Below the pieces are notes generated by a model that saw nothing but the letters and a program-made list of their open reading frames with translations, did not search any database and had not been told where the DNA came from. Source: Vicinamibacteraceae bacterium (GTDB taxonomy: Bacteria; Acidobacteriota; Vicinamibacteria; Marinacidobacterales; Marinacidobacteraceae). Taken from it: DNA of 33,884 nt. The stretch covers positions 1 to 33,884 of the forward strand of contig JAAXGQ010000022.1 in the NCBI GenBank assembly GCA_012271265.1. The letters are read 5' to 3'. This document shows, piece by piece, positions 10,390 to 33,884 of this stretch. Numbering within the stretch: the first letter of the stretch is position 1; every line of letters begins with the position of its first letter. The position numbers and the translations under genes were made by a program.

Positions 10390-10450
10390 AGAAGAAATCC
10401 GGGCGATCCCGCGTCGGCGCGGACCGGCGAGAAACTGCCCAAGGGACCTC

Positions 10451-10489
10451 GGTGCGGCGCAGGCCGGCGAGGACGCCGGCGCTCCATGG
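10451..10489 (-). repeat. REP-like element, subtype A
   Basis: A 39-base copy of the dispersed repeat in reverse orientation, with hairpin arms GCCGGCG / CGCCGGC and loop TCCT, flanked by CCATGG on one side and the GCGCCGCACC tail on the other. It lies between the TonB-dependent receptor gene and the PIG-L gene. It could act as a transcription attenuator or mRNA stabiliser. Confidence 0.85.
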
Positions 10490-10547
10490 CCCGGAAGCGC
10501 GGCCCTCCTCTCTGGCCAACCCGCCGGAGGCGCCATGGACCGCGCGT

Positions 10548-12887
10548 TCAGGGGGCGGAATCGAGGGTCCAGATCAGGGTGCCCACGACGCTGCGGCCAG
10601 GCGCGAGAACGGCGCGTCGGTCGGCGCTGATCGGAACCGAGGCATCCAGGAGATTCCGTCCGGAGAACCGCAGCTCGGCCCCGTAGGCCACCGGGAACCC
10701 GACCGCGAGGTCGAGCCGGGCGTGGGCATCGACTGCCGCTTCCGTGGGTCCGGGGCGCTCGTGGGCGGCGAAGCCGAGAAGCACCACCTCGGCGAAGGAG
10801 CTGAAGGCGAGCCGACGACGCAGACCGGCGCGGAAGTGCGCCGGCGCCACGCCGTCGAGCCACCTCCCGTCCTCCGCCGCCCCCCGCGCCAGCGCCCCGG
10901 AGAGATCGAGGTGCGTCGGGTCCTGAGGCTCGCCGAGATGCAGCTCGAGTTCCACACCGCGGAGGAGCGCCTCCCCCCGGTTGCGGAAGAAGAAGATGTC
11001 CGCTGCGCCTTCGTATCGCTCGACCAGGTCCCGGATCCGGTAGCGGTAGGCGTGGAGGCCCCCGCTCACCCGCCCCCGGTCGAAGCGCAGGGACACATCG
11101 GCCTGCACCGCCCGCTCCGGCCTGAGATCGGGGTTCCCGAACACGACCCCGCGGCCGCTGAGCCCGGCGTAGTAGCGATCCGAAAGGGTGGGATCGCGGA
11201 ACCCCCGCGAGAGTTGCCCCGTGACCGCGATGCCTTCGCTCAGATCGGCGCGAAGCGCGGCAAAGCCGCTGAGCGCTCTGTGCGCGCTGGCGCGGGGCGT
11301 CCCTCCGGCGCGCCCGCCGCCGGCCTCGGCGTGGGTTGCGGAAAGACGGGCGCCGGCGCTCGCCTGAAGCCGCGCGCCCACCGGTAGGTCCCCGTGGCTG
11401 AACACGGACGCCTCGCGCCGGACCGCCCCGTCAAGATCGCCGGAAAGCGCGATCGTTCCCGACCCCGGGGCCAGAGGAGGCGCCGGGAAGAGTTCCGCGA
11501 GCCCGGGCGGGCGCGGCCCACCTGCCGGCTCCACCCGGGTCCCGGATTCGAGGCCAAACCGGCTCAGCAGCTCGGTCCCGAACTCGATGCGTCCACGGCC
11601 GAGGGGACGAACTCCCCGGCTCCGCAACATGAAGTCACGCGCGGTGACTCCGGACTCGGCCGCGACCTCGCCCTCCTCCCGGCGGGTGACCAGGTGGTGG
11701 CTCCCGAGGAACACGGTCGCGTCCATGCGGGCGAAACCCCAGCGGGGCGCGAGCCGATAGTCCACCGTCAACCGGGTGGAGTCTTCCTTCGGGTACGAGG
11801 TGGTGGCGCTGCTTCGCCGCGGCCGGCCGATGTTGCGACCGCCGTCCACCTGGAGTCCCACCCCGAGCAGCCCGCCACCCACGTCGCGGGCCGCCCGCAG
11901 CATGGCGCCCGCGTCCTCGGCCCCGGAACCGCGAACCGTCCCTTCCGGACTGCGGTACTCCCCGAAGACCCGCCTCCTCCCCTGCACCAGGAGGCCGGTG
12001 CCCGAAACGGACCCGGAGACCTGGCCGCCGAAGCTCGCCTCCGGCAGACCCGTCCCGAGCGTGCCCCGGAACCGGCCTTCGAGCGGCGCCCCCGGACGGG
12101 GCCTCGGGGTGCGCGCATGGATCACCCCGCCAAAGGCGTCCGATCCGTAGGCCACCGGCGACGGCCCCCGGACCACTTCGACGGCCTCCAGGAAGAACGG
12201 ATCGAGAAACGTCCCGCTGGCGCCGGCGCGCCGCTCGGTCGTCACCCGCGCCCCGTCGATCAGCAGCAGCGTCCGCCCCCGCGAAAGCCCGCGGATCGCC
12301 GGAACCCCGGCATGCAGGTCGCTGCTGCGGCCGGCGCCGGGCACCGCCTCGAGCACATCCGTGAGCCGCGGCGCCTGACGGCTTCGGATCGCCTCGCCAG
12401 AAACGACCGCCGAAGCGCTTCCGGGCGTGGCCTCGGTGTGGGGCACCGCCCCGCTGGTGATGGTGACCGTCTCGCTGACCGAGAGCGCCGCCACCCGGAT
12501 CTCGGCGGCGTCTTCGAGGGAGACGATCCAGACCGGGCTGGCATAGCGGTCGCCGGGAAGGACGACGAGGATGTGGAACGGGGGCGCCGGACCGGAAGAC
12601 CAGACGAAGCGGCCCTCGGCGTCCGTGGTCACCGAGCCCGGGTGACCCAGAATCTGGACGATCGCACCCGCCACCGGTTCGCCGTCCTCGAGCAGAACGC
12701 GCCCCTCGAACGACGCCTCCCCAGCCGCGGCCGCCGCCGGGACCCCGAGAACGACCGCGACAAGTGCGCCGGCGAGGAATCGAACGCCCCTTCCGCGGAT
12801 TTGCCGGACGAGGCGCCGTCCCCATGGAGCGCCGGCGTCATCGCCGGCCTGCGCCGCACCCTCGGTCGCTCGCACCGGGAACCTCAC
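10548..12887 (-). CDS. TonB-dependent outer-membrane receptor with carboxypeptidase-regulatory-like domain
   Basis: An outer-membrane active-transport receptor. After a hydrophobic signal core (about residues 37-55 from the chosen start) come a CarboxypepD-regulatory-like beta-sandwich (about 58-120), a plug domain (roughly 140-260, with DVLEAVPGAG and VEVVRGPSPVAYGSDAFGG blocks), then the beta-barrel. The ligand is unknown. The start is uncertain: no ATG, GTG or TTG lies in frame between the REP element at 12822-12860 and the signal core, so every usable start (GTG at 12875, 12887 or 12956) makes the protein begin with REP-encoded residues. I chose 12887 because GAGG lies just upstream and the gene then starts 22 bases after the AmpG-family gene. 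The C-terminus (IWTLDSAP) lacks the usual terminal aromatic residue. Confidence 0.82.
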   Translation of the reverse strand: MRFPVRATEGAAQAGDDAGAPWGRRLVRQIRGRGVRFLAGALVAVVLGVPAAAAAGEASFEGRVLLEDGEPVAGAIVQILGHPGSVTTDAEGRFVWSSGPAPPFHILVVLPGDRYASPVWIVSLEDAAEIRVAALSVSETVTITSGAVPHTEATPGSASAVVSGEAIRSRQAPRLTDVLEAVPGAGRSSDLHAGVPAIRGLSRGRTLLLIDGARVTTERRAGASGTFLDPFFLEAVEVVRGPSPVAYGSDAFGGVIHARTPRPRPGAPLEGRFRGTLGTGLPEASFGGQVSGSVSGTGLLVQGRRRVFGEYRSPEGTVRGSGAEDAGAMLRAARDVGGGLLGVGLQVDGGRNIGRPRRSSATTSYPKEDSTRLTVDYRLAPRWGFARMDATVFLGSHHLVTRREEGEVAAESGVTARDFMLRSRGVRPLGRGRIEFGTELLSRFGLESGTRVEPAGGPRPPGLAELFPAPPLAPGSGTIALSGDLDGAVRREASVFSHGDLPVGARLQASAGARLSATHAEAGGGRAGGTPRASAHRALSGFAALRADLSEGIAVTGQLSRGFRDPTLSDRYYAGLSGRGVVFGNPDLRPERAVQADVSLRFDRGRVSGGLHAYRYRIRDLVERYEGAADIFFFRNRGEALLRGVELELHLGEPQDPTHLDLSGALARGAAEDGRWLDGVAPAHFRAGLRRRLAFSSFAEVVLLGFAAHERPGPTEAAVDAHARLDLAVGFPVAYGAELRFSGRNLLDASVPISADRRAVLAPGRSVVGTLIWTLDSAP
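12822..12860 (+). repeat. REP-like element in the 5' end of the receptor gene
   Basis: A 39-base subtype A copy with arms GCCGGCG / CGCCGGC and a variant loop, TCAT instead of TCCT. It lies inside the open frame leading to the TonB-dependent receptor's signal peptide, and read in that frame it encodes part of the N-terminus. Confidence 0.85.
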
Positions 12888-12909
12888 GCCTCGGACCGGA
12901 TCGCGCGCT

Positions 12910-14445
12910 TCACGCCCGCCGCCGGGCAGCCGCGTAGGCAGCGCCGAAGAGACCACAGATCAGGGCCAGGACCAGGATCCCGGCAACCTGGACCTGGTCC
13001 TCGAAGGAACCGGGCGCGAGCAGCGGGGAGAGGCCGGCCGCAAGCGAGAAGCCCGCCTCCGGAGCCGCCCGCAGCGCCTTCAGCGACCCGAGGAGCAGGG
13101 CGATCAGGAACACGATGCCCCCACCCGCCAGGGCCGCGAGGAGGAACGGACGGAAAATCCCCCCGCCCCCGGCGGGACGCCGCAGCCGTTCAGCCGACCC
13201 GAAGCGGATCCTGGGGTCGCGCACGCCGAGCGGCGAGAACCGGTGCAGGAGAACGAGCCCGGGAATCCCCATGGCCATCGTGCCCAGGAAGAACGTGCGC
13301 CAGCCGAGGGCGTCGACCGCAAAGCCGCTGAACGGACCGGCCAGGATCCGGGGCAGCGCGAACAGACCGGAGAAGAGGGCGTACTGGGTCGCGGAGAACC
13401 GTCGGTCGGTGATCCGCAGCAGCAGCACCGAGAACGCCCCGGTGCCGAGCCCGCTCGCCAGCATTTCGAACGCCTGCGCCCCGTACATCCAGGCCAGGCT
13501 CCCGCCGGCCCCGGCCACGAAGAAGTAGCCCAGGTTCGAGAAGACCTGGAGTCCGCCGAAGACCCACAGCGAGTGCCCGAGGCCGGCGAAATTGGTGAAC
13601 ACCCCCCCGAGGAAGGTTCCCCCGAGCGTGGCGGCGAGACCCACCGTGGCGAGCGCGATGCCCCGGTGGTCGGCCGTGTAGCCCATGTCCACCAGGAACG
13701 GGCGCGTGAGGGCCTGGGCCAGGTTGTCCGCGAACTTGTAGAAGAAGACGAAGGCGAGGATCTCGAGGGCGCGGGGCCGGGCCAGCGCCTCCAGGAAGGG
13801 CTTCCAGATCGCGTCCGAGAGCGTCTTCGGCGCCGCCGGCGGCGTCTCCGGCTCGGGCGACCGCCAGCTCACCACCAGCATCGGGATGTAGATCAGGGCG
13901 AGCAGCGCGTTCACCGTCCCCCAGCCGTGGACCGCCGCCCAGCTGATCGCGCCGCCCCCCGCGACGAGCATCGCGGCGCGATAGAGCGCGACGCGGGCTC
14001 CCACCGCGACGCCGTGCTCCTCCGGCCGCAGGACATCCACCGCGTAGGCGTCGATCACGATGTCCTGCGACGCGCTGGCAATCCCCACCGCCAGCGCGAG
14101 CGCGGCCACCATCCAGATGGCGTCGGGATGGTCGCCCAGGCCGGAAAGGAGCAGGATGAGCCCCAGCAGCGCCACCTGGAACACCGCCATCCAGCCGCGC
14201 CGGCGCCCCCAGAATCCCGTCCCGTAGCGGTCCAGGAACGGCGACCAGATGATCTTGAAGGACCACGGGATCTGTGCCAGGTTGAAGAGGCCGACGATGC
14301 GGATGTCCACCCCGATATCCCGCATCCAGTCTGGGATCGCGATCCAGACCACGCCCAGCGGGAGCCCCGAGGCGAACGAGAGAAGCGTGACCGAAAGCGT
14401 CCGCCGCGAGCGGAGGGCGCGCCCGATGTCCCCGAGGGCGCTCAC
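12910..14445 (-). CDS. AmpG-family MFS permease
   Basis: The 511-residue inner-membrane protein has about 14 hydrophobic segments and resembles the AmpG branch of the major facilitator superfamily. AmpG imports GlcNAc-anhydroMurNAc peptides released from peptidoglycan. Characteristic blocks: FASGLPLG (residues 24-31), WSFKIIWSPFLDRY with GRRRGW, ASQDIVIDAYAVD, and FSATQYALFSGLFALPR followed by GWRTFF. The GTG at 14445 is the only plausible start; a GGAGGG lies 12 bases upstream, rather far. It precedes the TonB-dependent receptor gene by 22 bases, so the two are probably co-transcribed. Some AmpG-like proteins in other phyla carry other solutes, so the muropeptide role is likely but not certain. 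Confidence 0.85.
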   Translation of the reverse strand: MSALGDIGRALRSRRTLSVTLLSFASGLPLGVVWIAIPDWMRDIGVDIRIVGLFNLAQIPWSFKIIWSPFLDRYGTGFWGRRRGWMAVFQVALLGLILLLSGLGDHPDAIWMVAALALAVGIASASQDIVIDAYAVDVLRPEEHGVAVGARVALYRAAMLVAGGGAISWAAVHGWGTVNALLALIYIPMLVVSWRSPEPETPPAAPKTLSDAIWKPFLEALARPRALEILAFVFFYKFADNLAQALTRPFLVDMGYTADHRGIALATVGLAATLGGTFLGGVFTNFAGLGHSLWVFGGLQVFSNLGYFFVAGAGGSLAWMYGAQAFEMLASGLGTGAFSVLLLRITDRRFSATQYALFSGLFALPRILAGPFSGFAVDALGWRTFFLGTMAMGIPGLVLLHRFSPLGVRDPRIRFGSAERLRRPAGGGGIFRPFLLAALAGGGIVFLIALLLGSLKALRAAPEAGFSLAAGLSPLLAPGSFEDQVQVAGILVLALICGLFGAAYAAARRRA

Positions 14446-14790
14446 GACCGGGGCGACCCTCCGTTCGGCCGAACGAAGGCCGCCGTGACCGGGGAGGGAT
14501 GTCGTCTCATCGCGGATTTGTCGGAAGGAGTCGCCGCCCGGAGGCGCGGGTCAGGAAGTGGCGTGCAAGGCAAGCGCCATCCTCCCCCGCGCACCCCGGT
14601 CAAGCTTGGCCGTCCCTCCAAATTGTAGAGAGTCGCCGCCTCGGCGCCGGAACTGCCCGGACTCGTCCGCGAGGCGCACCACCATGGCCCGCCGAGTGGG
14701 CGACGGGGCGCCGGTCTCGGCTCGACCTCTCACGAATCGCGGCATGATCCCTACGAATCCGGGCGTGATCGCCGAGCCGACCGGGCGCCT
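14446..14790. other. Intergenic stretch, no supported gene
   Basis: No coding sequence can be supported here. Open frames on both strands have no ribosome site or recognisable motif. A possible - strand promoter for the AmpG-family gene is TACAAT (plus positions 14622-14627) with TTCCGG 17 bases upstream, but the -35 match is poor. Confidence 0.4.
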
Positions 14791-14911
14791 GATGTCAAGA
14801 AACGTCCGTCGTCGAACGTACGATTGCCAGCCCTCATCGAGGCCTACTGCCGTGCGCGAGTCAGGGAGAACGGTGGTCGACCATGAGCTGCGCCTGGAGG
14901 ACTCGGAGTGA
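14791..14911 (+). pseudogene. Probable relic of a ParD-type ribbon-helix-helix antitoxin gene
   Basis: In the frame of 14815-14886 the translation reads NVRLPALIEAYCRARVRENG and then stops. This resembles the strand and first helix of ParD-like antitoxins (N-V-x-L-P, then E-A-Y-x-R-A-R-V). The overlapping frame ending at 14911 reads VVDHELRLEDSE, similar to the family's C-terminal helix, which suggests a frameshift plus an internal deletion. There is no start codon with a ribosome site and no toxin gene next to it. The match is by eye over few residues, so this is tentative. Confidence 0.35.
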
Positions 14912-14934
14912 TCCGGCGGCGCCGACTCGAAGCG

Positions 14935-16089
14935 CTACGTCGAGATCGTCACCCCCTGGTCCGATGCTGCGAGGTCGAGCAGGTAGTCGGCGAAGCTGGG
15001 GATACCCAGCTCCCAGCCCGCAGGGCCGTTCCAGAGGATGCCCAGATCCGCGAGGGCTTCCAGAAGCTGCGGCGGCCGCAGCGGCGGATCCGTCCCGGCT
15101 GCCAGATCCTTCATGAGCGGTCGGAGCGCGAGGGAGGTCAGCGGGCGGTCCGCCCGACGACGAAAGAACCGCGCGAGGGAGACAAGGACATCGTCGATCT
15201 CCCGCCTCCGCGCTTCGTCGAGGCGCTCGCTGTAGAACCGGGCGATTTTCCCCTCGGTTGCGGCAAGCCCTTCTGTGACCGCATCCGAAGCGATGCGCGA
15301 CTCGCCGCGCCGGGCGGCCGCGTCCCACGCCGCGCTTCCCAGCAACTGGATGAAGAACGGGTAGTCCTGCGAGGTCTCCGCAAGAGGGGCGGCAGCGCCT
15401 TCCACGAAGGGACGCCCCGCGTCCCCCGCTGGTTCCTGAAGCGCCCGCAGGGTCTCCCCCCGCTGGAGGCGGCCGACCGGAACCCGCTCCAGCATCCGCT
15501 CGGTGAACGTGCCGCACTCCCGGATGCGCCTCGGAGCGTCCGGCGTGCCCGCGACCACCAGAAGGAACAGCCGGTCCGCCAACGCCATCTCCTGAAGCGC
15601 CCGGAAGAAGGCGCCGCCACCCTCGGGGCGCAGCAGGTGGGCTTCGTCGACAAGCATGACCAGCGGGCCCTCATCCGCTCCCATCCATGCCGCCAGCAGA
15701 TCCGGGACGTTCGTCGTCGTCTCGGATGGTCGAACCGAAACGCCAAATCCGGCTGCCTGCGCCCCGGAGAGTCTCGGCCCGGTCAGGCGGGCCTGTTCGC
15801 GGAGATAGCGCGCCACGCTCTCTCGGGTCGCCAGGACCTGGACGTCGATCGTCGCGCTCCGCAAGCCGCGCCGGCGCGCCAACTCGCCGGTCCGGGCCAG
15901 CAGCGTCGTCTTGCCGTTGCCTCGGGGGCCGAAAAGGAGCACGCCCTGGGGCGGGCGCTCGCCCCGGGCGAGCCGGTCGAGCGCCGTCTCCAGGATCCCG
16001 AGCTCCGCCTCCCGGCCGGCCAGGACCGGAGGAAGCTCGCCGGCCCCGGGTCGGAACGGATTCACGCCCGCGGGCGCGCCGCCGGTCAT
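14935..16089 (-). CDS. P-loop ATPase of the AAA/Orc1-like type (copy 2)
   Basis: A 384-residue soluble ATPase. Walker A is GPRGNGKT near residues 54-61, Walker B is LVMLVDEAH near 145-153, and a probable sensor region is VVAGTPD. The C-terminal half looks helical and winged-helix-like and has a conserved QDYPFFIQLLG block. The layout fits AAA_16/Orc1-like ATP-binding proteins, most of which have no known function. Its ATG overlaps the stop of the preceding paralogue (ATGA at 16089-16086), so the two are probably translated together. From AGTPDAPRR onward it differs from the paralogue at only 9 of 197 residues by my count, while the N-terminal halves are clearly diverged. It is the last gene of the long - strand run. 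Confidence 0.85.
   Translation of the reverse strand: MTGGAPAGVNPFRPGAGELPPVLAGREAELGILETALDRLARGERPPQGVLLFGPRGNGKTTLLARTGELARRRGLRSATIDVQVLATRESVARYLREQARLTGPRLSGAQAAGFGVSVRPSETTTNVPDLLAAWMGADEGPLVMLVDEAHLLRPEGGGAFFRALQEMALADRLFLLVVAGTPDAPRRIRECGTFTERMLERVPVGRLQRGETLRALQEPAGDAGRPFVEGAAAPLAETSQDYPFFIQLLGSAAWDAAARRGESRIASDAVTEGLAATEGKIARFYSERLDEARRREIDDVLVSLARFFRRRADRPLTSLALRPLMKDLAAGTDPPLRPPQLLEALADLGILWNGPAGWELGIPSFADYLLDLAASDQGVTIST
14966..15552. repeat. 587-base direct repeat, copy 1 (ATPase C-terminal half)
   Basis: Nearly identical, without gaps, to 16108-16694. It covers the C-terminal halves of the two adjacent ATPase genes. Similarity drops abruptly past 15552. Confidence 0.9.
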
Positions 16090-17231
16090 CGCGCGCTCGT
16101 CCTCGACGCTGCGAGGTCGAGCAGGTAGTCGGCGAAGCTGGGGATGCCGAGCTCCCAGCCCGCGGGGCCGTTCCAGAGGATGCCCAGATCCGCGAGGGTT
16201 TCCAGAAGCTGCGGCGGCCGCAGCGGCGGATCCGTCCCGGACGCCAGGTCCTTCATGACCGGGCGGAGCGCGAGGGAGGTCAGCGGGCGGCCCGCCCGAC
16301 GACGAAAGAACCGCGCGAGGGAGACAAGGACATCATCGATCTCCCGCCTCCAGGCTTCGTGCAGGCGCTCGCTGTAGAACCGGGCGATTTTCCCCTCGGT
16401 TGCGGCAAGCCCTTCTGTGACCGCATCCGAAGCGATGCGCGACTCGCCGCGCCGGGCGGCCGCGTCCCACGCCGCGCTTCCCAGCAACTGGATGAAGAAC
16501 GGGTAGTCCTGCGAGGTCTCCGCAAGAGGACGGGCGGCGCCTTCCACGAAGGGACGCCCGGCGTCTCCCGCCGGTTCCTGAAGCGCCCGCAGGGTCTCCT
16601 CCCGCTGGAGGCGGCCGACCGGAACCCGCTCCAGCATCCGCTCGGTGAACCTGCCGCACTCTCGGATGCGCCTCGGAGCGTCCGGCGTGCCCGCCGCGAC
16701 AGGCAGCAACGGCAGGCGTCGCGCGGTCACCTGCTGGACCGCGTGGAAGAACGCCCGGCCCGCCGGCGGCTCGATGCTCTGAGCCTCGTCCAGCAGCAGA
16801 ACCAGCGGAGCGTCATCCGATCGAATCCACTCGGAGAGCAGGAGAGCCAGGTTGACCGGGCGCAGCCCCGGATCCGCGGACACGCCAAAACCGGCGACCT
16901 GGGCGCCGGCGAGACGCGCTCCGGTCAGCCCCGCCGCCTCCTGGAGATGGAGGGTGAGATCTGCCCGACTCTCGAAGCAGGACGCGGGGAGTTCGGCGGT
17001 GCGCAACCCCCTTTCCGAGGCGAGTTCTTCGGTCCGGATCAGCAGGCTGGTCTTGCCGTTCCCCCTGGGTCCGAAGAACAGGATGCCCTGGGAAGGGCGC
17101 CTGCCGCGCGCCAGGCTGGCGAGCGCACGCTCCACCGGAAACAGCTCGGCCTGTCGTCCGGCGAGGACAGGAGGCGGCAGCCCGGCTCCGGGCTCGAACG
17201 GATTCTCCTTTCGGGCGTCGTCAGCGGTCAC
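16086..17231 (-). CDS. P-loop ATPase of the AAA/Orc1-like type (copy 1)
   Basis: Paralogue of the next gene, 381 residues from the chosen start. Walker A is GPRGNGKT; Walker B is LVLLLDEAQ, with Gln where the sister protein has His. The GTG at 17231 is preferred over the upstream GTG at 17303 because it gives the same nine-residue lead before the shared NPF..PGAG motif as in the sister protein. It also overlaps the stop of a small upstream ORF (GTGA). The N-terminal nucleotide-binding half is diverged from the sister and the C-terminal half is nearly identical. The pair may form a hetero-oligomer with different N-terminal surfaces (inference). Function unknown. Confidence 0.83.
   Translation of the reverse strand: MTADDARKENPFEPGAGLPPPVLAGRQAELFPVERALASLARGRRPSQGILFFGPRGNGKTSLLIRTEELASERGLRTAELPASCFESRADLTLHLQEAAGLTGARLAGAQVAGFGVSADPGLRPVNLALLLSEWIRSDDAPLVLLLDEAQSIEPPAGRAFFHAVQQVTARRLPLLPVAAGTPDAPRRIRECGRFTERMLERVPVGRLQREETLRALQEPAGDAGRPFVEGAARPLAETSQDYPFFIQLLGSAAWDAAARRGESRIASDAVTEGLAATEGKIARFYSERLHEAWRREIDDVLVSLARFFRRRAGRPLTSLALRPVMKDLASGTDPPLRPPQLLETLADLGILWNGPAGWELGIPSFADYLLDLAASRTSAR
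16108..16694. repeat. 587-base direct repeat, copy 2 (ATPase C-terminal half)
   Basis: Partner of 14966-15552 at an offset of 1142 bases. Equal length and near identity suggest recent duplication or gene conversion limited to the C-terminal coding half. Confidence 0.9.
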
Positions 17232-17464
17232 TTCACTGTTCGCTCCGCCGCGGCGCGTTCGAGCAGGTCGCGCCCGAAGCCCGCGAGCCCGGACGCCTGC
17301 CACTGCAGCCCGTTCCCAAGCATGCCCCGCTCGGAAGCACCCACGAACCGTGGACTCCCGATCGCCATCGCTTCCAGCATAACGCTCGAAGGTTGGCCGC
17401 GCGCGCGAATCAGCGACAGCCGCCGTGCGGCGGGAGCGCGACGGCAGGCCGCGCTGCCCGCCAT
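17228..17464 (-). CDS. Small hypothetical ORF ahead of the ATPase pair
   Basis: A 78-residue open frame starting 10 bases after the SSS transporter gene and ending in a four-base GTGA overlap with the first ATPase gene. Starts at 17380 or 17368 (46 residues) are equally possible, and none has a good Shine-Dalgarno sequence. The C-terminal part (GNGLQWQASGLAGFGRDLLERAA) looks amphipathic and helical. I do not recognise a family. The tight spacing is the main argument for it being real; chance open frames are common at this GC content. Confidence 0.35.
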   Translation of the reverse strand: MAGSAACRRAPAARRLSLIRARGQPSSVMLEAMAIGSPRFVGASERGMLGNGLQWQASGLAGFGRDLLERAAAERTVK

Positions 17465-17474
17465 GACGCGAGGG

Positions 17475-18923
17475 TCAGGGCCTCGCCTTCGGCGTAGGGG
17501 TCGCGGCGGGGAGGAGGCGGGCGGTCAGGAGGCCCAGGAGGACGGTAGTGAGCGAGCCCACCATGACATCCCACGTCCACGCGAGTGGAAGCCCGCCCAG
17601 CCGGATCGCCGCGGGAGCCAGGAAACCCGCCGCCATCCCGACGAGAACCGCGTTGGCGGGCGCGCGTCGGGCGACCAACGCCAGCCCGAAGGCCCCGACG
17701 GTGGGCCCGGACGCGTAGGAAAGGGCGGCCAACCCGGCCTCGAGCGCTGAGGGGGCCCGCTGCGCGAGGAGCGCGACCCCGGTCTGGACGAGTCCCCAGA
17801 CGACCACGAACCACCGCCCGGCGCGCACCTGGTCGAACGGCCGCGCCCCGCCCTCCCCTTCGCGGCGCTGCCGCCAGGGAAGCCAGAAGTCGCGCACGGT
17901 CGTGGAGGCCAGACTCACCAACGACGGGGAAAGCGCCGCCGCCACGACCGCGGCGAGGGTGATGCCGGCCGCGGGGCCGGACAGCGTTTCGGCCACGAAG
18001 GTCGGGAGGACTTCGTCGGGACGTCCGAACTCCCGCCCGCCGTAGTGCGCGTGGAGCCAGGCGCCGATGAAGAGGAAGAGGCAGAACTGCATCACCGCCC
18101 CCACCCCGGAAAGGACGAGGCCCGCCTGCGCCTGGCGCAGCGACCGCGCCGCGAGCAGGCGCTGCGCGAGGAACTGGTCGGTGCCATGGGTGGCGAAGGT
18201 CAGGAAGATCCCGCCGAGGAGGCCCGCCCAAATGGTGTAGGGGATGCCGGTGTCGAAGACGGGCTCCACGATGCGGAACCTGCCCGCCGCAGCGGCCTCG
18301 GAAACCCACCCGAGCGGGGCTCCGGCGCCGCCTTCGACCAGCGCCAGGACGATCACGCCGGCGCCAACCAGGTACACCCCGAGCTGGATCACGTCGGTCC
18401 AGATCGTCGCCTTGACCCCACCCTCCTCGGAAAACAGCACCATCGCGGCCGCGAGAGCCAGGATGCACCACCACTCCGGCACCCCGGCCACGATCGCCAC
18501 CATGAGCGCGGCGGCGTGAAGGCGGATCCCGTCGGCGAGGCTGCGGTAGACGAGGAAGATCGCCGCCGCCACCCCCTGCACCCGCGCTCCGAAGCGGTTC
18601 TTCAGCAGCTCGTAGGTGGTGATCACCCGTCCCCGGAAGTACGCGGGGAGCAGCACCAGCGCGATCCCGACCCGTCCCAGCGCGAAGCCGAAGGCGAGCT
18701 GGAGAAAGCCGAAGTCCGCCTCGTAGGCATACCCGGGGACCGAAGTGAAGGTGAGGACGCTCGTCTCGGTGGCGATGATGCAGGCCGCCACCGCCCACCA
18801 GGGCGCCGAGCGCCCCGCCAGGAAGAACCCGGTGACGCTCCGGTCGCGCCGGCCGACCCAGATCCCGAACGCGGTGATGCCGATCAGGTACCCGACAACC
18901 GTCAGCACCGCCGATGCGGACAT
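17475..18923 (-). CDS. Sodium:solute symporter (SSS family)
   Basis: A 482-residue membrane protein with about 13 hydrophobic helices and SSS family features: FFLAGRSAPWW near residues 33-43, ACIIATETSVLTF, VKATIWTDVIQLGVYL, and SLVSLASTTVRDF in the second half. It is clearly different from the SGLT-like symporter at 4928-6553. The solute is unknown, and members of this branch carry sugars, amino acids or organic acids. The ATG is 34 bases downstream of the endonuclease-like gene. A metabolite transporter between a restriction-modification pair and the ATPases is unexpected; it may be an unrelated passenger in the operon. Confidence 0.88.
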   Translation of the reverse strand: MSASAVLTVVGYLIGITAFGIWVGRRDRSVTGFFLAGRSAPWWAVAACIIATETSVLTFTSVPGYAYEADFGFLQLAFGFALGRVGIALVLLPAYFRGRVITTYELLKNRFGARVQGVAAAIFLVYRSLADGIRLHAAALMVAIVAGVPEWWCILALAAAMVLFSEEGGVKATIWTDVIQLGVYLVGAGVIVLALVEGGAGAPLGWVSEAAAAGRFRIVEPVFDTGIPYTIWAGLLGGIFLTFATHGTDQFLAQRLLAARSLRQAQAGLVLSGVGAVMQFCLFLFIGAWLHAHYGGREFGRPDEVLPTFVAETLSGPAAGITLAAVVAAALSPSLVSLASTTVRDFWLPWRQRREGEGGARPFDQVRAGRWFVVVWGLVQTGVALLAQRAPSALEAGLAALSYASGPTVGAFGLALVARRAPANAVLVGMAAGFLAPAAIRLGGLPLAWTWDVMVGSLTTVLLGLLTARLLPAATPTPKARP

Positions 18924-18957: not shown

Positions 18958-19857
18958 TCAGCCATCGGGCGAGAGCACCGTCATAAGCCGCGGGATCGCA
19001 TCGGCGATCTCATCGGCCCGCGTGGTCGAACTCTCCGCGGCCGCGGCAAGCGCTCCGGCCCGGAGCCGCTCCCACAGTTCGTCGGGATCCGCCCACTCGG
19101 CGTGTCGCCGGAAGAACTCGGTGCAGTCCCGCGCCGGAATCCCCGCCACTTCCGTGCGCTGCTGGCGTCGGATCCAGTCCGTGAGAAGTCCCGTCCGCGC
19201 CAGACGGCCGAAGTTGCCACCCGCATCCGAGCGAGGGCGATCGGCCACGGCCTCCCGGCCACCATAGGCGCGGGCCCCCGCCGGCGCCGCGATCGACGTG
19301 TCCGACCATGTCCGGCGCCCGTGGCGCCACCACCAGTTCCGGTACTCGGCGGCATGTTTGGCCGACCAGACGCCCGGCGCGCCCAGGACGGGCGTCCCGG
19401 CAAGGACGTTCGAGAGGCGCCACGGGACCACGACCAACAGATCGTGCGCCGCGCACGCCGCAGGGCTCGCCGTGTAGCGAAAACTCGGCGCTCCCTCCTT
19501 GGCGAGGAGGTACCAGCCCTTTAGCTCGATTCCGAACGCGATCTCCTTACCTTCCGCGACGAGCACCACGTCAGGAAAGGTCTGTGCCTGGCGCTCGAAG
19601 CGGTGCAGGGGCCATTCGTCGTCCGGGTCCCAGACGGTGCGCATCCGGTTGAGGGCCTCGACGACCTGGGCCTCGATGGTGGAGGCCAGAAGAGAGTTGA
19701 GCGAGAACAGATCGGTCGCCGGCAGGCCCTCAATGTTCGTTCGGGAATGGAAATGGGCTGGAAGGGCCCGCAAAGCGTCGCGTACCCGAGCAGCCAGTTC
19801 TTGCCCGGGTTCCGCCGAGGCCGCGCGGGGCGGCGGGGGCGGGGTGGGCGTCCGCAT
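18958..19857 (-). CDS. Probable type II restriction endonuclease (PD-(D/E)XK type)
   Basis: A 299-residue protein whose core matches the PD-(D/E)XK nuclease pattern: Pro95-Asp96 in QTFPDVVLV, then a spacer, then Glu111-Leu-Lys113 in FGIELKGWYLL. A preceding helix-rich segment (TDLFSLNSLLASTIEAQVVEALN) could form the N-terminal part of the fold. Its ATG shares one base with the stop of the DNA methyltransferase gene (TGATG at 19859-19855), the usual tight pairing of type II restriction-modification genes. I assign the function from motif plus partner; the recognition site is unknown. The open frame extends far upstream but only as a shadow of the methyltransferase. Confidence 0.75.
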   Translation of the reverse strand: MRTPTPPPPPRAASAEPGQELAARVRDALRALPAHFHSRTNIEGLPATDLFSLNSLLASTIEAQVVEALNRMRTVWDPDDEWPLHRFERQAQTFPDVVLVAEGKEIAFGIELKGWYLLAKEGAPSFRYTASPAACAAHDLLVVVPWRLSNVLAGTPVLGAPGVWSAKHAAEYRNWWWRHGRRTWSDTSIAAPAGARAYGGREAVADRPRSDAGGNFGRLARTGLLTDWIRRQQRTEVAGIPARDCTEFFRRHAEWADPDELWERLRAGALAAAAESSTTRADEIADAIPRLMTVLSPDG

Positions 19858-20990
19858 CAGGTGGAGTTCGTATCTCCTGACGAACGGTGGAAGAGACTCT
19901 GCTTGAGGCTCTCGGCCGTGCGGCGAAGTCGGTCCTCCGCAAGATCGGCGAAGCGGGGCACGGATTCCGCAGCGAAGGCGCGCCGATCGAGCCCGAGCGC
20001 CGCAACTGCCGCGGAGCACAGACCCCCGAAAGGCTCCCACACGATGTCCGAGCGCCGGGTCGAGGCGCGCAGGGTGCGCCGCATGAATTTCAGCGGCTTC
20101 TGGTTCAGATGCGCCGCTGCGTTCCGCCCTCGGGAGTGAGTCCGAGGCGCAGATGGGACGCCGTTGCCCTTGTATCGCTCCTTCCCATGCAGCGGTGGCA
20201 ACGACCAGACGTTCGTCACGCCGTGACGATGCCGCCAGACGGACCGGAAGGACGCCCACTCGGCTTCCGTGACCGGAGCCGCGCCGTCCAGCGAAAAATA
20301 CGGAGCTCCCTCGCCGGGGCCGTGCTCGTTGGCGTAGCCGACCAGCCGCGCCATCATCTCCGGTGGCGGCCAGTACCACAACCAGTCGCGGGTGAGGTAT
20401 TTGCGCGTTGCCGCGTTCTTCACCCCACAAGCCGTGTTCGCCGCAGATAGGGGAAGGCCAGCGCGACGCCATTCGTGGCTCAACCAGTCCCGGATCGACA
20501 TGCGCCCGCCAGCCGTATCCACCTGTGGTTTGCGCCGGTAGAGCGCGCACACCTCCGTCACGACCGGGAACTGCCGGATTGTCCGGCCGTTGACGTTGCC
20601 TGCCACGTGCCCGATCCCCTTGTCCCACACGATGGTCTCGACGTACTCGAAGCCGTATCGGGTCAGCAGTGGGTGGACCGTCGCCCAGCCGATTTCCGTA
20701 TTCCAGAACCAGAGCGTCGTGGAGAGATGAGCATGAGCATCCCAGGCGGCGACGTGGGGCTCGTACCACGCCGGCAACTCCTCGACCTCCCGCGGGTCAC
20801 CGGGGAAACCCCCGACACCGTACGCGCCGTCTGAAACGATCGTCGCGGGAGTGGGCCAGGTGGAGTAAGCCTCGAGGGCATCCCCTCGTACCAGTGTGGC
20901 CGAGCCGGAGTCGACGGTGAACGTCCGCCCGGCGGGGCGCCCTGCCGCCGGCGCGGGAACAGGCCCGGGACCCGACGCGAAGTCAGGCAC
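19857..20990 (-). CDS. DNA (amino) methyltransferase, beta-class
   Basis: A site-specific adenine-N6 or cytosine-N4 methyltransferase. The catalytic motif IV appears as SDGAYG (residues 53-58 from the chosen start), a variant of the usual (D/S)PPY. The AdoMet-binding part lies near the C-terminus (NQKP at about 296, EPFGG at 319-323). Motif IV before motif I marks the beta class, with the target-recognition region between. The start is uncertain: GTG at 20990 overlaps the end of the HEAT-repeat gene by 8 bases, while GTG at 21047 would overlap it by 65. It should protect host DNA from the linked endonuclease-like protein. Confidence 0.85.
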   Translation of the reverse strand: MPDFASGPGPVPAPAAGRPAGRTFTVDSGSATLVRGDALEAYSTWPTPATIVSDGAYGVGGFPGDPREVEELPAWYEPHVAAWDAHAHLSTTLWFWNTEIGWATVHPLLTRYGFEYVETIVWDKGIGHVAGNVNGRTIRQFPVVTEVCALYRRKPQVDTAGGRMSIRDWLSHEWRRAGLPLSAANTACGVKNAATRKYLTRDWLWYWPPPEMMARLVGYANEHGPGEGAPYFSLDGAAPVTEAEWASFRSVWRHRHGVTNVWSLPPLHGKERYKGNGVPSAPRTHSRGRNAAAHLNQKPLKFMRRTLRASTRRSDIVWEPFGGLCSAAVAALGLDRRAFAAESVPRFADLAEDRLRRTAESLKQSLFHRSSGDTNST

Positions 20991-26097: not shown

Positions 26098-27714
26098 GTG
26101 TCCGAACCGAACTGCCCTTCCGAACTCCGCCTGCTCGCCCTCGTCGACGAGGAGCTGGACCCGTCCACCGCGGCGGCCGTCCGCTCCCACGTCGGCGCCT
26201 GCTTCGCCTGCGGGGCCCGCCATGAGGCGCTCCGCCGGGAGAGTGAGGTTCTGCTCTCGTCCCTGGCCGCCTCCCGGTCCGAAGCGCGCGACGCCCGCCA
26301 CGAGCTGCCCTGGGTGATCGCGGCCGGCCTTCTGATCTCGCTCGGCCTGGTCGTCTTTCGGCGGACGGTCCTTGACTTCGGGGAGACGGTGAGCAGCATC
26401 CCCGCCGCCGAGGCGCTTTCCATGCCCCGCTTCTCCTACTGGCTTTTCTCCCTCTTCGACTTCACCCAGCTCACCCAGCAACTCCTCTACGGAGGCCTTC
26501 TCGTCATGACCATGATCGGCATCGCCGTCGCAGCCCCCTTCGTGCGGCGCTTCCGCGCCCGGACCGCCACCATCCTGCTCGCCACCGGGCTCACGGCCGG
26601 CTCGGGCGTCTTGCCGCCCTCCGCCGAGGCCCTCGAAGTGATCCGGGGGACGAACGCCGCCGCCTGCGGGGTCCCTGCCGAACGGATCATCGAGGACGAC
26701 GTCGCCATCCTCTGCGAGGAGTCGACGATTGCCGGAACCGTGCGCGGGGACGTCTATTTCCTGCTCGGGCAGCTCCGGGTCACCGGGACCGTGGACGGCG
26801 ACCTCATCGGTCTGGCCCAGGCCGTCGAAGTCTCGGGGGCGGTGTACGGAAGTGTGCGAGCCGCGGCGGAACGCATCGAGGTCGCCGGGGACGTGGGCCG
26901 CAGCCTGACGGTCGCGGCGCAGCGCCTCCTGGTCCGCGACGGCGGGCGCGTCGGGGGATCGCTGTTCAGTGCCGGGGAGTCCATCGAGATCGCCGGACGG
27001 GTGGCGCGGAACGTCACCTCGGCGGCGGCCCGGGGACGGCTCGAATCGGAGGTCGGCGGCGCAGCCAGGTTCTACGGCCGGGAACTCCACCTCGGATCGG
27101 CGGCGGCGGCAGCGAACGGCATCGCGTTCCATGGCGAGAACGAACCGGAGCGGGCCGACGGCGCGGCCGACGTCGATTGGGTCGTGCCGGAAACCGATGA
27201 AGAGGCCGTGGATCCCTGGGATGAGGGCCGCAGCCTGCTGCTCAGCTGGGGCATGGGCATGGGGCTCGGGGCGCTCCTCCTCTGGCTGTGGGCGGGTCCG
27301 CTCGGCGCCGCGGCCGCCAGGATTCGCCGTCCCTGGATTCCTCTCCTGCTCGGGCTCGGACTGTTCGTCGGCCTGCCGTTCGCCAGCCTGCTGCTGGCCA
27401 TCACCGTCGTCGGCATCCCGCTCGCCCTGACCCTGCTCGCCGGATGGGCCTTTCTCATCTACGCCTCGCGGCTGGTTCTCGGCTATGCGATCGGCCACGC
27501 CATCCTGGGCGCCGCAGCGGGTCCCTGGCGGAACCTCGGGCGGCTCGCGCTCGGCCTCGGCATCTATCTGGTCGCGACGCGGATCCCGGTCCTGGGAGGG
27601 GCGGTGTGGCTGCTCACGGTGTTCTTCGGTCTCGGCGCGCTGGGCTGGGCGCTCCTGCGCCGCCAAACCGGCGGCGGCCCGCCGGTCCCGACGGCGGCTC
27701 CCTCGGGCGCCTGA
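26098..27714 (+). CDS. Zinc-finger anti-sigma factor fused to a bactofilin-like membrane protein
   Basis: A 538-residue protein. Residues 1-45 carry a zinc-finger anti-sigma motif (His31-xxx-Cys35-xx-Cys38) that would hold the sigma factor. Membrane helices lie near 71-88 and 128-146, with another hydrophobic stretch at about 156-172. Residues about 205-335 form short repeating beta segments (GTVRGDVYFL, VTGTVDGDLIGL, VSGAVYGSVRA) typical of bactofilin-like (polymer-forming, CcmA-type) beta-helices. The C-terminal 140 residues hold several more membrane helices. GTG start, two bases after the sigma factor stop. The layout suggests an assembling or surface-sensing domain that controls sigma release (inference). 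Confidence 0.85.
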   Translation: MSEPNCPSELRLLALVDEELDPSTAAAVRSHVGACFACGARHEALRRESEVLLSSLAASRSEARDARHELPWVIAAGLLISLGLVVFRRTVLDFGETVSSIPAAEALSMPRFSYWLFSLFDFTQLTQQLLYGGLLVMTMIGIAVAAPFVRRFRARTATILLATGLTAGSGVLPPSAEALEVIRGTNAAACGVPAERIIEDDVAILCEESTIAGTVRGDVYFLLGQLRVTGTVDGDLIGLAQAVEVSGAVYGSVRAAAERIEVAGDVGRSLTVAAQRLLVRDGGRVGGSLFSAGESIEIAGRVARNVTSAAARGRLESEVGGAARFYGRELHLGSAAAAANGIAFHGENEPERADGAADVDWVVPETDEEAVDPWDEGRSLLLSWGMGMGLGALLLWLWAGPLGAAAARIRRPWIPLLLGLGLFVGLPFASLLLAITVVGIPLALTLLAGWAFLIYASRLVLGYAIGHAILGAAAGPWRNLGRLALGLGIYLVATRIPVLGGAVWLLTVFFGLGALGWALLRRQTGGGPPVPTAAPSGA

Positions 27715-27716
27715 CG

Positions 27717-28066
27717 CCATGGAGCGCCGGCGTCCTCGCCGGCCTGCGCCGCACCTCCCGTCCCGGCGACAGCCTCCTCCCGTCAGCGCCGCACCCATGG
27801 AGCGCCGGCGTCCTCGCCGGCCTGCGCCGCACCTCCCGTCCCGGCGACAGCCTCCTCCCGAGAGCGCCGGCCCATGGAGCGCCGGCGTCCTCGCCGGCCT
27901 GCGCCGCACCTTCCGCCCCTGCCGCAGTCTCCTCCCGTCAGCGCCGGGCCCATGGAACGCCGGCGTCCTCGCCGGCCTGCGCCGCACTTTCCGCCCCTGC
28001 CGCAGTCTCCTCCCGTCAGCGCCGGGCCCATGGAGCGCCGGCGTCCTCGCCGGCCTGCGCCGCATC
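27717..28066 (+). repeat. Tandem array of five REP-like elements
   Basis: Five subtype A copies start at 27717, 27795, 27872, 27950 and 28028, each 39 bases and spaced 77-78 bases apart. All have the GCCGGCG-TCCT-CGCCGGC hairpin; copy 4 has GGAACGCC for GGAGCGCC. The linkers are themselves repeated: those after copies 1 and 2 are one type, those after copies 3 and 4 another. This stretch between the anti-sigma gene and the terB-like gene contains no supported gene. The array could act as a transcription barrier or mRNA stabiliser at the 3' end of the sigma operon. Confidence 0.93.
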
Positions 28067-28122
28067 TCCCGCCCCTGCCGCGGTCTTGCCGGGCGCTACA
28101 GTCAGCCCCCCGGAGATCGCAG

Positions 28123-32587: not shown

Positions 32588-32640
32588 ATGGAGCGTCGGC
32601 CCCATGGAGCGCCGGCGTCCTCGCCGGCCTGCGCCGCACC
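32588..32640 (+). repeat. REP-like element, subtype A, upstream of mtgA
   Basis: The 39-base core is at 32602-32640, preceded by GGAGCGTCGGCC, a flank also present (reversed) at the right end of the window. A weak hairpin (CACGAC 32542-32547 / GTCGTG 32560-32565) and two GGCGCGCC sites (32522, 32573) lie just before it. The frame through the REP element joins that of mtgA but is not taken as coding. Confidence 0.85.
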
Positions 32641-32726
32641 GTTCCTGCGCATGCGCCGCATCCACCTGGAAGTCCGTCAGGGTGAGACGGGCCTTCATCC
32701 ATCCGGCGGCGGCAAGGGAGGAGTCG

Positions 32727-33649: not shown

Positions 33650-33884
33650 GGGAGCGCCGGTGTCCTCACCGGCCACCGCCGCAGGCGGGCATGGTCCGTG
33701 GGTCTCCCGGCACACCGTCCGTCGGCAAGGCGGCGCGGTCAACAGGAGACTGCCTGAGGGGCCGAAGGTCCGGCCCAGGCCGGCGAGGACGCCGGCGCTC
33801 CATGGGGCCGACGCTCTCAACGGCCACCGCACCGCGGGCGCCGGTGTCCTCACCGGCCACCGCCGCAGGCCGGCATGGTCCGTG
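33650..33884. repeat. Right-end cluster of REP-like elements
   Basis: A subtype B copy on the + strand (33650-33702, hairpin GCCGGTG-TCCT-CACCGGC), a subtype A copy on the - strand (33772-33805), and a second B copy on the + strand (33836 to the window end). The B-then-reversed-A arrangement mirrors the left end of the window (A, then reversed B), including the segment around CTCCCGG..CCGTCC..GGCAAGG between them. Confidence 0.88.

Follow-up and report, generated by a model that had tools for sequence, protein, structure and literature searches.

Partial conversion tracts between paralogues have been described in the bacterial release factors RF1/RF2 (PMC4530459), and gene conversion between the tandem mammalian genes TLR1/TLR6 (PMC2077338). 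The two overlapping ATPase genes considered in this study resemble both cases in that one segment of the pair is homogenised and the adjoining segment diverged; unlike them, they are uncharacterised AAA+ genes of an uncultured member of the Acidobacteriota, seen at a single locus with no trace through time. As regards fold, the predicted structure is like that of the archaeal Orc1/Cdc6 proteins and Walker-type ATPases (2v1u, 2qen, 2fna), in which an AAA+ core is followed by a lid and a winged helix, but unlike these it shares only 14–20% identity and falls far below the curated sequence cut-offs. At the sequence level, AAA_16-type 'ATP-binding protein' genes of actinobacterial and other plasmids are co-linear over 84–95% of the length at 26–30% identity, and are much more distant than the close subfamily marked by the motifs NPFxPGxG and AGTPDAP, which was found only within this bacterial family.

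The window, i.e., the whole 33,884-nucleotide stretch analysed, comes from a draft metagenome-assembled genome (MAG) that is 87.65% complete. As no orthologous pair was found in the genomes searched, the history of the two genes rests on one locus in this single MAG. The genes, hereafter A and B, lie head to tail on the reverse strand:

16086–17231, minus strand: gene A, AAA+ ATPase of 381 aa with a GTG start, Walker A GPRGNGKT and Walker B LLLDEA
14935–16089, minus strand: gene B, AAA+ ATPase of 384 aa with an ATG start

The start of B is coupled to the end of A by a 4-nt ATGA overlap, and the two genes align without gaps, beginning at their starts and continuing almost to their ends, with an offset of exactly 1142 bp. 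They belong to a lineage-expanded family of AAA+/winged-helix ATPases, arranged here in tandem. The original prediction had described the ATGA overlap, a gap-free direct repeat of 587 bases and a difference of 9 in 197 residues over the repeat, and its coordinates and counts were right. Each gene can be divided into two parts:

14966–15552, minus strand: homogenised tract in B (lid and winged-helix half)
16108–16694, minus strand: homogenised tract in A, counterpart of 14966–15552
15553–16089, minus strand: diverged ATP-binding half of B
16695–17231, minus strand: diverged ATP-binding half of A

Between the two tracts 25 of 587 nucleotides differ (95.7% identity), as do 9 of 197 residues from AGTPDAPRR to LLDLAAS, whereas the N-terminal halves show 216 differences in 537 nt and 49% protein identity; the contrast in mismatches between the halves has a p value of about 2e-53. 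The strong divergence of the N-halves and the abruptness of the boundary, both proposed earlier, are borne out by a single step in identity, in 50-bp windows, from 96% to 56%. The break maps to 15552/15553 in B, at residue 180: A and B are identical up to 15552, and 7 mismatches fall in the next 13 bases. Among 34 family members of nearly full length, taken from the own genome (G000) and the relatives G002, G003 and G009, A and B are the sole outlier of 561 pairs, with C-half identity exceeding N-half identity by 0.44, while the other pairs have a mean difference of -0.025 (sd 0.05, maximum +0.13). Since these other pairs average -0.025 between the halves, slower evolution is not inherent to the C-half.

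The cause of this identity can be judged from synonymous sites. In the A/B comparison, dS (NG86) falls about tenfold at the break, from 1.12 in the N-half to 0.10–0.12 in the C-half, a pattern at odds with even divergence along the whole length, and four-fold sites differ at 37/66 positions in the N-half and at 13/123 in the C-half. In the comparison pairs (A–L046, B–L046, L035–L036, the L048 pair and L037–L049), dS is 0.8–1.3 on both sides, and about 50–67% of four-fold sites differ in both halves. Strong purifying selection acting without recombination, for example on a surface shared with a partner, could account for the 9 differing residues in 197 and for a C-half dN/dS of about 0.24, but it leaves the equally depressed synonymous sites unexplained (13/123 four-fold differences against 50–65% in other pairs), and across the family the C-half is conserved no better than the N-half. 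Constraint as the cause is therefore rejected by the synonymous sites and is extremely improbable. As synonymous divergence collapses only in the A/B C-half, recent recombination, either gene conversion or unequal crossing-over, is in our judgement very likely the reason why the C-halves are nearly identical. Either process fits, as gene conversion cannot be told from repeated unequal crossing-over by the trace that it leaves. Inside the tract, a run of 167 bp without any difference (15221–15387; p 0.005 under even scatter of the 25 differences) is modest evidence that hints at more than one exchange.

The same pattern would also be expected if a recent duplication of the whole gene had been followed by replacement of one copy's N-half from a diverged paralogue, a domain swap by which one protein would gain two alternative ATPase halves, and the many paralogues offer possible donors. 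With an age corresponding to a dS of 0.1, however, the donor N-half should still be about 90% identical, and no N-half in the own genome matches better than 55%; although the donor could be hidden in the missing part of the MAG or have been lost, we consider this history unlikely. Phylogenetic trees were obtained for both halves. In the C-half tree, A and B are sisters (100/99) and the solitary L046 gene of the sister genus (G002) comes next (100/97). In the N-half tree, B groups with L046 (81/64; 87/87 with fewer rows) and A lies elsewhere, but a sister relationship of A and B is not rejected (AU p 0.32). If the N-half tree is real, it would weakly suggest a transfer from B to A, with B being the native L046-like gene and A having received the C-half of B.

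According to the recombination explanation, exchange between the tandem copies would have replaced the C-terminal half of one gene by a copy of its counterpart in the other, either by gene conversion or through repeated unequal crossing-over in an array formerly of three copies. The exchange would stop at the conserved sensor-1 motif, beyond which the N-halves, only about 60% identical, would no longer recombine. An AlphaFold2 model of B, based on a ten-row alignment (mean pLDDT 87.5), consists of an AAA+ core, a helical lid and a winged helix; in this model the break at residue 180 coincides with the end of a strand (175–181) that is the sensor-1 strand by position, so that the shared half comprises the lid and winged helix and the diverged half the ATP-binding core. 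At a nucleotide identity of around 60%, homologous recombination is not expected to start. The boundary can hence maintain itself, and the diverged half needs no selective story. Gene conversion that keeps one domain uniform had been proposed beforehand: homogenisation by recombination is upheld by the synonymous sites, and the functional reason attached to it is not. The homogenisation of A and B is real and well supported, and its mechanism is ordinary. The pair provides a clean natural case, in bacterial AAA+ genes, of partial homogenisation that halts where one domain meets the next; it cautions against reading the identity of one half as shared function.

Upstream of A, two further features bear on the earlier extent of the array:

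17228–17368, minus strand: ORF0, 46 codons, overlapping the start of A by GTGA; its 3' end falls in the 1142-bp register of the A and B ends
17376–17381, minus strand: TATGCT, a putative -10 box that precedes the start of ORF0 by 7 nt, like the leaderless promoters of solitary paralogues

Positions 17245–17282 agree with the ends of A and B in 26 of 38 sites (p 3e-7 at the prespecified offset), a value reached at none of about 2,700 other offsets, and the GTGA overlap that couples ORF0 to the start of A has exactly the same place in this register as the ATGA overlap between the end of A and the start of B. Judged from its sequence, ORF0 is likely a remnant of a third family copy, the match covering the 3' end, and its position in the 1142-bp register supports an earlier, longer array. 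The array would thus have had three copies, of which the first may have been trimmed to its promoter, start and tail. A TAnnnT motif just before the start codon is a signature of leaderless genes in bacteria, including Acidobacteria (PMC3160421). This motif lies 6–7 nt before the start of 20/34 family copies, as compared with about 5% by chance, and a stricter automatic count gave 16/32 ATPase genes versus 15/213 other genes; it is absent before the starts of both A and B. The two genes may be co-expressed from the one leaderless promoter via their coupled stop/start overlaps, with the trimmed first copy leading translation into A and then B.

The family is large and unevenly distributed. The own genome contains 16 family matches, corresponding to about 12 full-length genes, and the sister-genus genome G002 contains 29, of which about 20 are full-length; G003 and G009 have few copies, and the remaining genomes of genus g2 have none or only distant ones. 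Among 396 genomes of the phylum, those outside this bacterial family possess only distant relatives, mostly one per genome. The named relatives are Acidobacteria MAGs; one record, MPMW01, corresponds to bin61 of the marine sponge Aplysina aerophoba (PMC5649159). Carriage by viruses was considered and rejected: no family relative was found in IMG/VR, and one distant phage record matches the family at 27%. Several copies meet contig ends. In G002, the ends L052 6316–6565 and L069 1–250 carry the same ATPase start and are identical over about 140 bp, being near-identical copies left unmerged by the assembly. In the own genome, the ends of L044 (C228) and L041 (C119) share a 24-bp overlap and probably represent one ATPase gene split over two contigs, and contigs break at the ends of L143 (C253) and L149 (C261), where G002 has the L046 and L056 ATPases, so that hidden copies may lie there. 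With 12 to about 20 solitary AAA+/winged-helix genes dispersed over each genome in a few related Acidobacteriota, no known function, and strong presence/absence turnover between relatives, the family constitutes a larger and more interesting lead than the A/B pair.

Nearly all family copies in G000, G002, G003 and G009 are solitary. This bears on the proposal that A and B are obligate paired subunits of a heterodimer, in which conversion was selected for a common interface and the ATPase halves receive different inputs. The overlapping, coupled genes, the intact P-loops and Walker B motifs in both proteins, and a fold resembling Orc1/Cdc6, whose matches include one heterodimer (2qby), speak for it. 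Against it, the family is overwhelmingly solitary, with the nearest homologue, L046 (about 56%), being single; nothing ties the pairing to function; and the diverged N-half is explicable by being too dissimilar to recombine. No second overlapping ATPase pair was present among the family copies when neighbouring genes were clustered, no orthologous A/B pair was found in the genomes searched, the site is empty in five relatives, and the pair is not conserved across relatives. The original prediction, in which paired subunits would have a partner in common but receive different inputs, is not supported and runs into the counter-case that it had itself named, relatives in which the gene stands alone and no pair occurs. 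Obligate pairing is compatible with the recombination explanation, and both can hold, but we regard it as improbable. Given that the family is scattered over a few related bacteria in the form of single genes, the A/B arrangement appears to be a local event rather than evidence of a two-part machine.

The insertion sites of the family copies were compared with the corresponding sites in relatives. At the A/B locus the relevant features are as follows:

17475–18923, minus strand: upstream flank, sodium:solute symporter gene (PF00474, E 1e-25)
12910–14445, minus strand: downstream flank, major facilitator superfamily (MFS) transporter gene (PF07690, E 4e-21)
14446–17474, no strand: 3029-bp block that five relatives lack between these flanking genes

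In those five relatives the symporter and MFS genes are directly adjacent, without the A/B block, which was either gained here or lost there; parsimony favours gain, because the site is also empty in G002. At four further family sites (L040, L037/L049, L046 and L056), the resident ATPase is likewise missing in relatives. The L040 site of G000 is empty in four relatives and holds a different ATPase subfamily in G003; the L037/L049 site has an orthologous ATPase in G000 and G002 and none in four relatives; and the L046 and L056 sites are without an ATPase in five relatives, G003 having another, different insertion at the L056 site. The L035 site is uninformative, with only one flank conserved in relatives. 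Copies thus stand between genes adjacent in relatives at 5/5 sites where both flanks could be compared. A solitary ATPase gene with its leaderless promoter might accordingly be a mobile unit or ride on one, which we think doubtful; if it were so, the pair in the window would have arisen as a double or triple insertion and then been homogenised through recombination. A direct repeat of 34 bp (28/34 identical) flanks the L067 copy of G003 and is present once in empty relatives. General target-site duplications were not seen, as only L067 stands out and other copies hardly exceed mismatched controls, and no IS605 OrfB (TnpB-like) local helper was detected in ten genomes. Since the L046 insertion carries extra small ORFs besides the ATPase and G003 has a different insertion at L056, the sites are places of general accessory-gene turnover, at which the ATPase need not be what moves. 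Clustering of neighbouring genes revealed no conserved neighbour of family copies; an outer-membrane beta-barrel family recurs beside few ATPase copies only. Two minor observations concern these sites: one of the small ORFs at L046 3902–4643 has, by eye, a DTGA motif like that of retropepsin-type aspartyl proteases, and L040 5035–6162 (G000) and L067 5295–6425 (G003) lie, in two genera, at one and the same intergenic site ahead of a terminator-like hairpin.

With respect to classification, B scores 46.8 bits against AAA_16 (PF13191), above the cut-off of 32.6, and A, though a clear homologue of B, remains below it at 26.5. A fold search of the PDB gave Orc1/Cdc6, RuvB and the archaeal ATPases 2qen and 2fna with TM scores of 0.47–0.58, the top matches being 2v1u and 1fnn (about 0.5), with large rmsd and a differing domain arrangement, so that these matches indicate the fold class only. 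B misses the Orc1/Cdc6 NCBIfam equivalog and subfamily cut-offs (25.3 vs 417 and 23.3 vs 181.3 bits), and the Pfam cut-offs for STAND NTPases are missed as well (nSTAND1, 16.2 vs 27.1 for A; nSTAND_NTPase5, 21.1 vs 34 bits for B). Assignment to a known anti-phage defence ATPase was rejected, PADLOC giving only weak P-loop matches (E 0.0015 and 0.047) and no model that fits most of the protein. Both A and B keep Walker A (GPRGNGKT) and Walker B (DE). On the basis of the model, we tentatively suggest that each protein might act as a switch powered by ATP, with the half made up of lid and winged helix, which the two now share, making contact with DNA or a partner. The common C-half would then give A and B the same target while their ATPase halves differ.

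Two other features of the window deserve mention. At 18958–20990 on the minus strand, an N6/N4 DNA methylase gene (19857–20990) adjoins an ORF of 271 aa with a PD...ELK-like motif (FPDVVL...IELKG); from sequence, the two form a possible restriction-modification pair, the nuclease reading being by eye only. A GC-rich interspersed repeat at 27700–28086, which reads PWSAGVLAGLRRT / MERRRPRRPAPH in different frames, has further copies in the window near 10400–10500, 12800–12900, 32590–32680 and 33650–33850. It is tandem in places, has 86 matches genome-wide, and also occurs close to the ATPase copies L036, L042 and L044.
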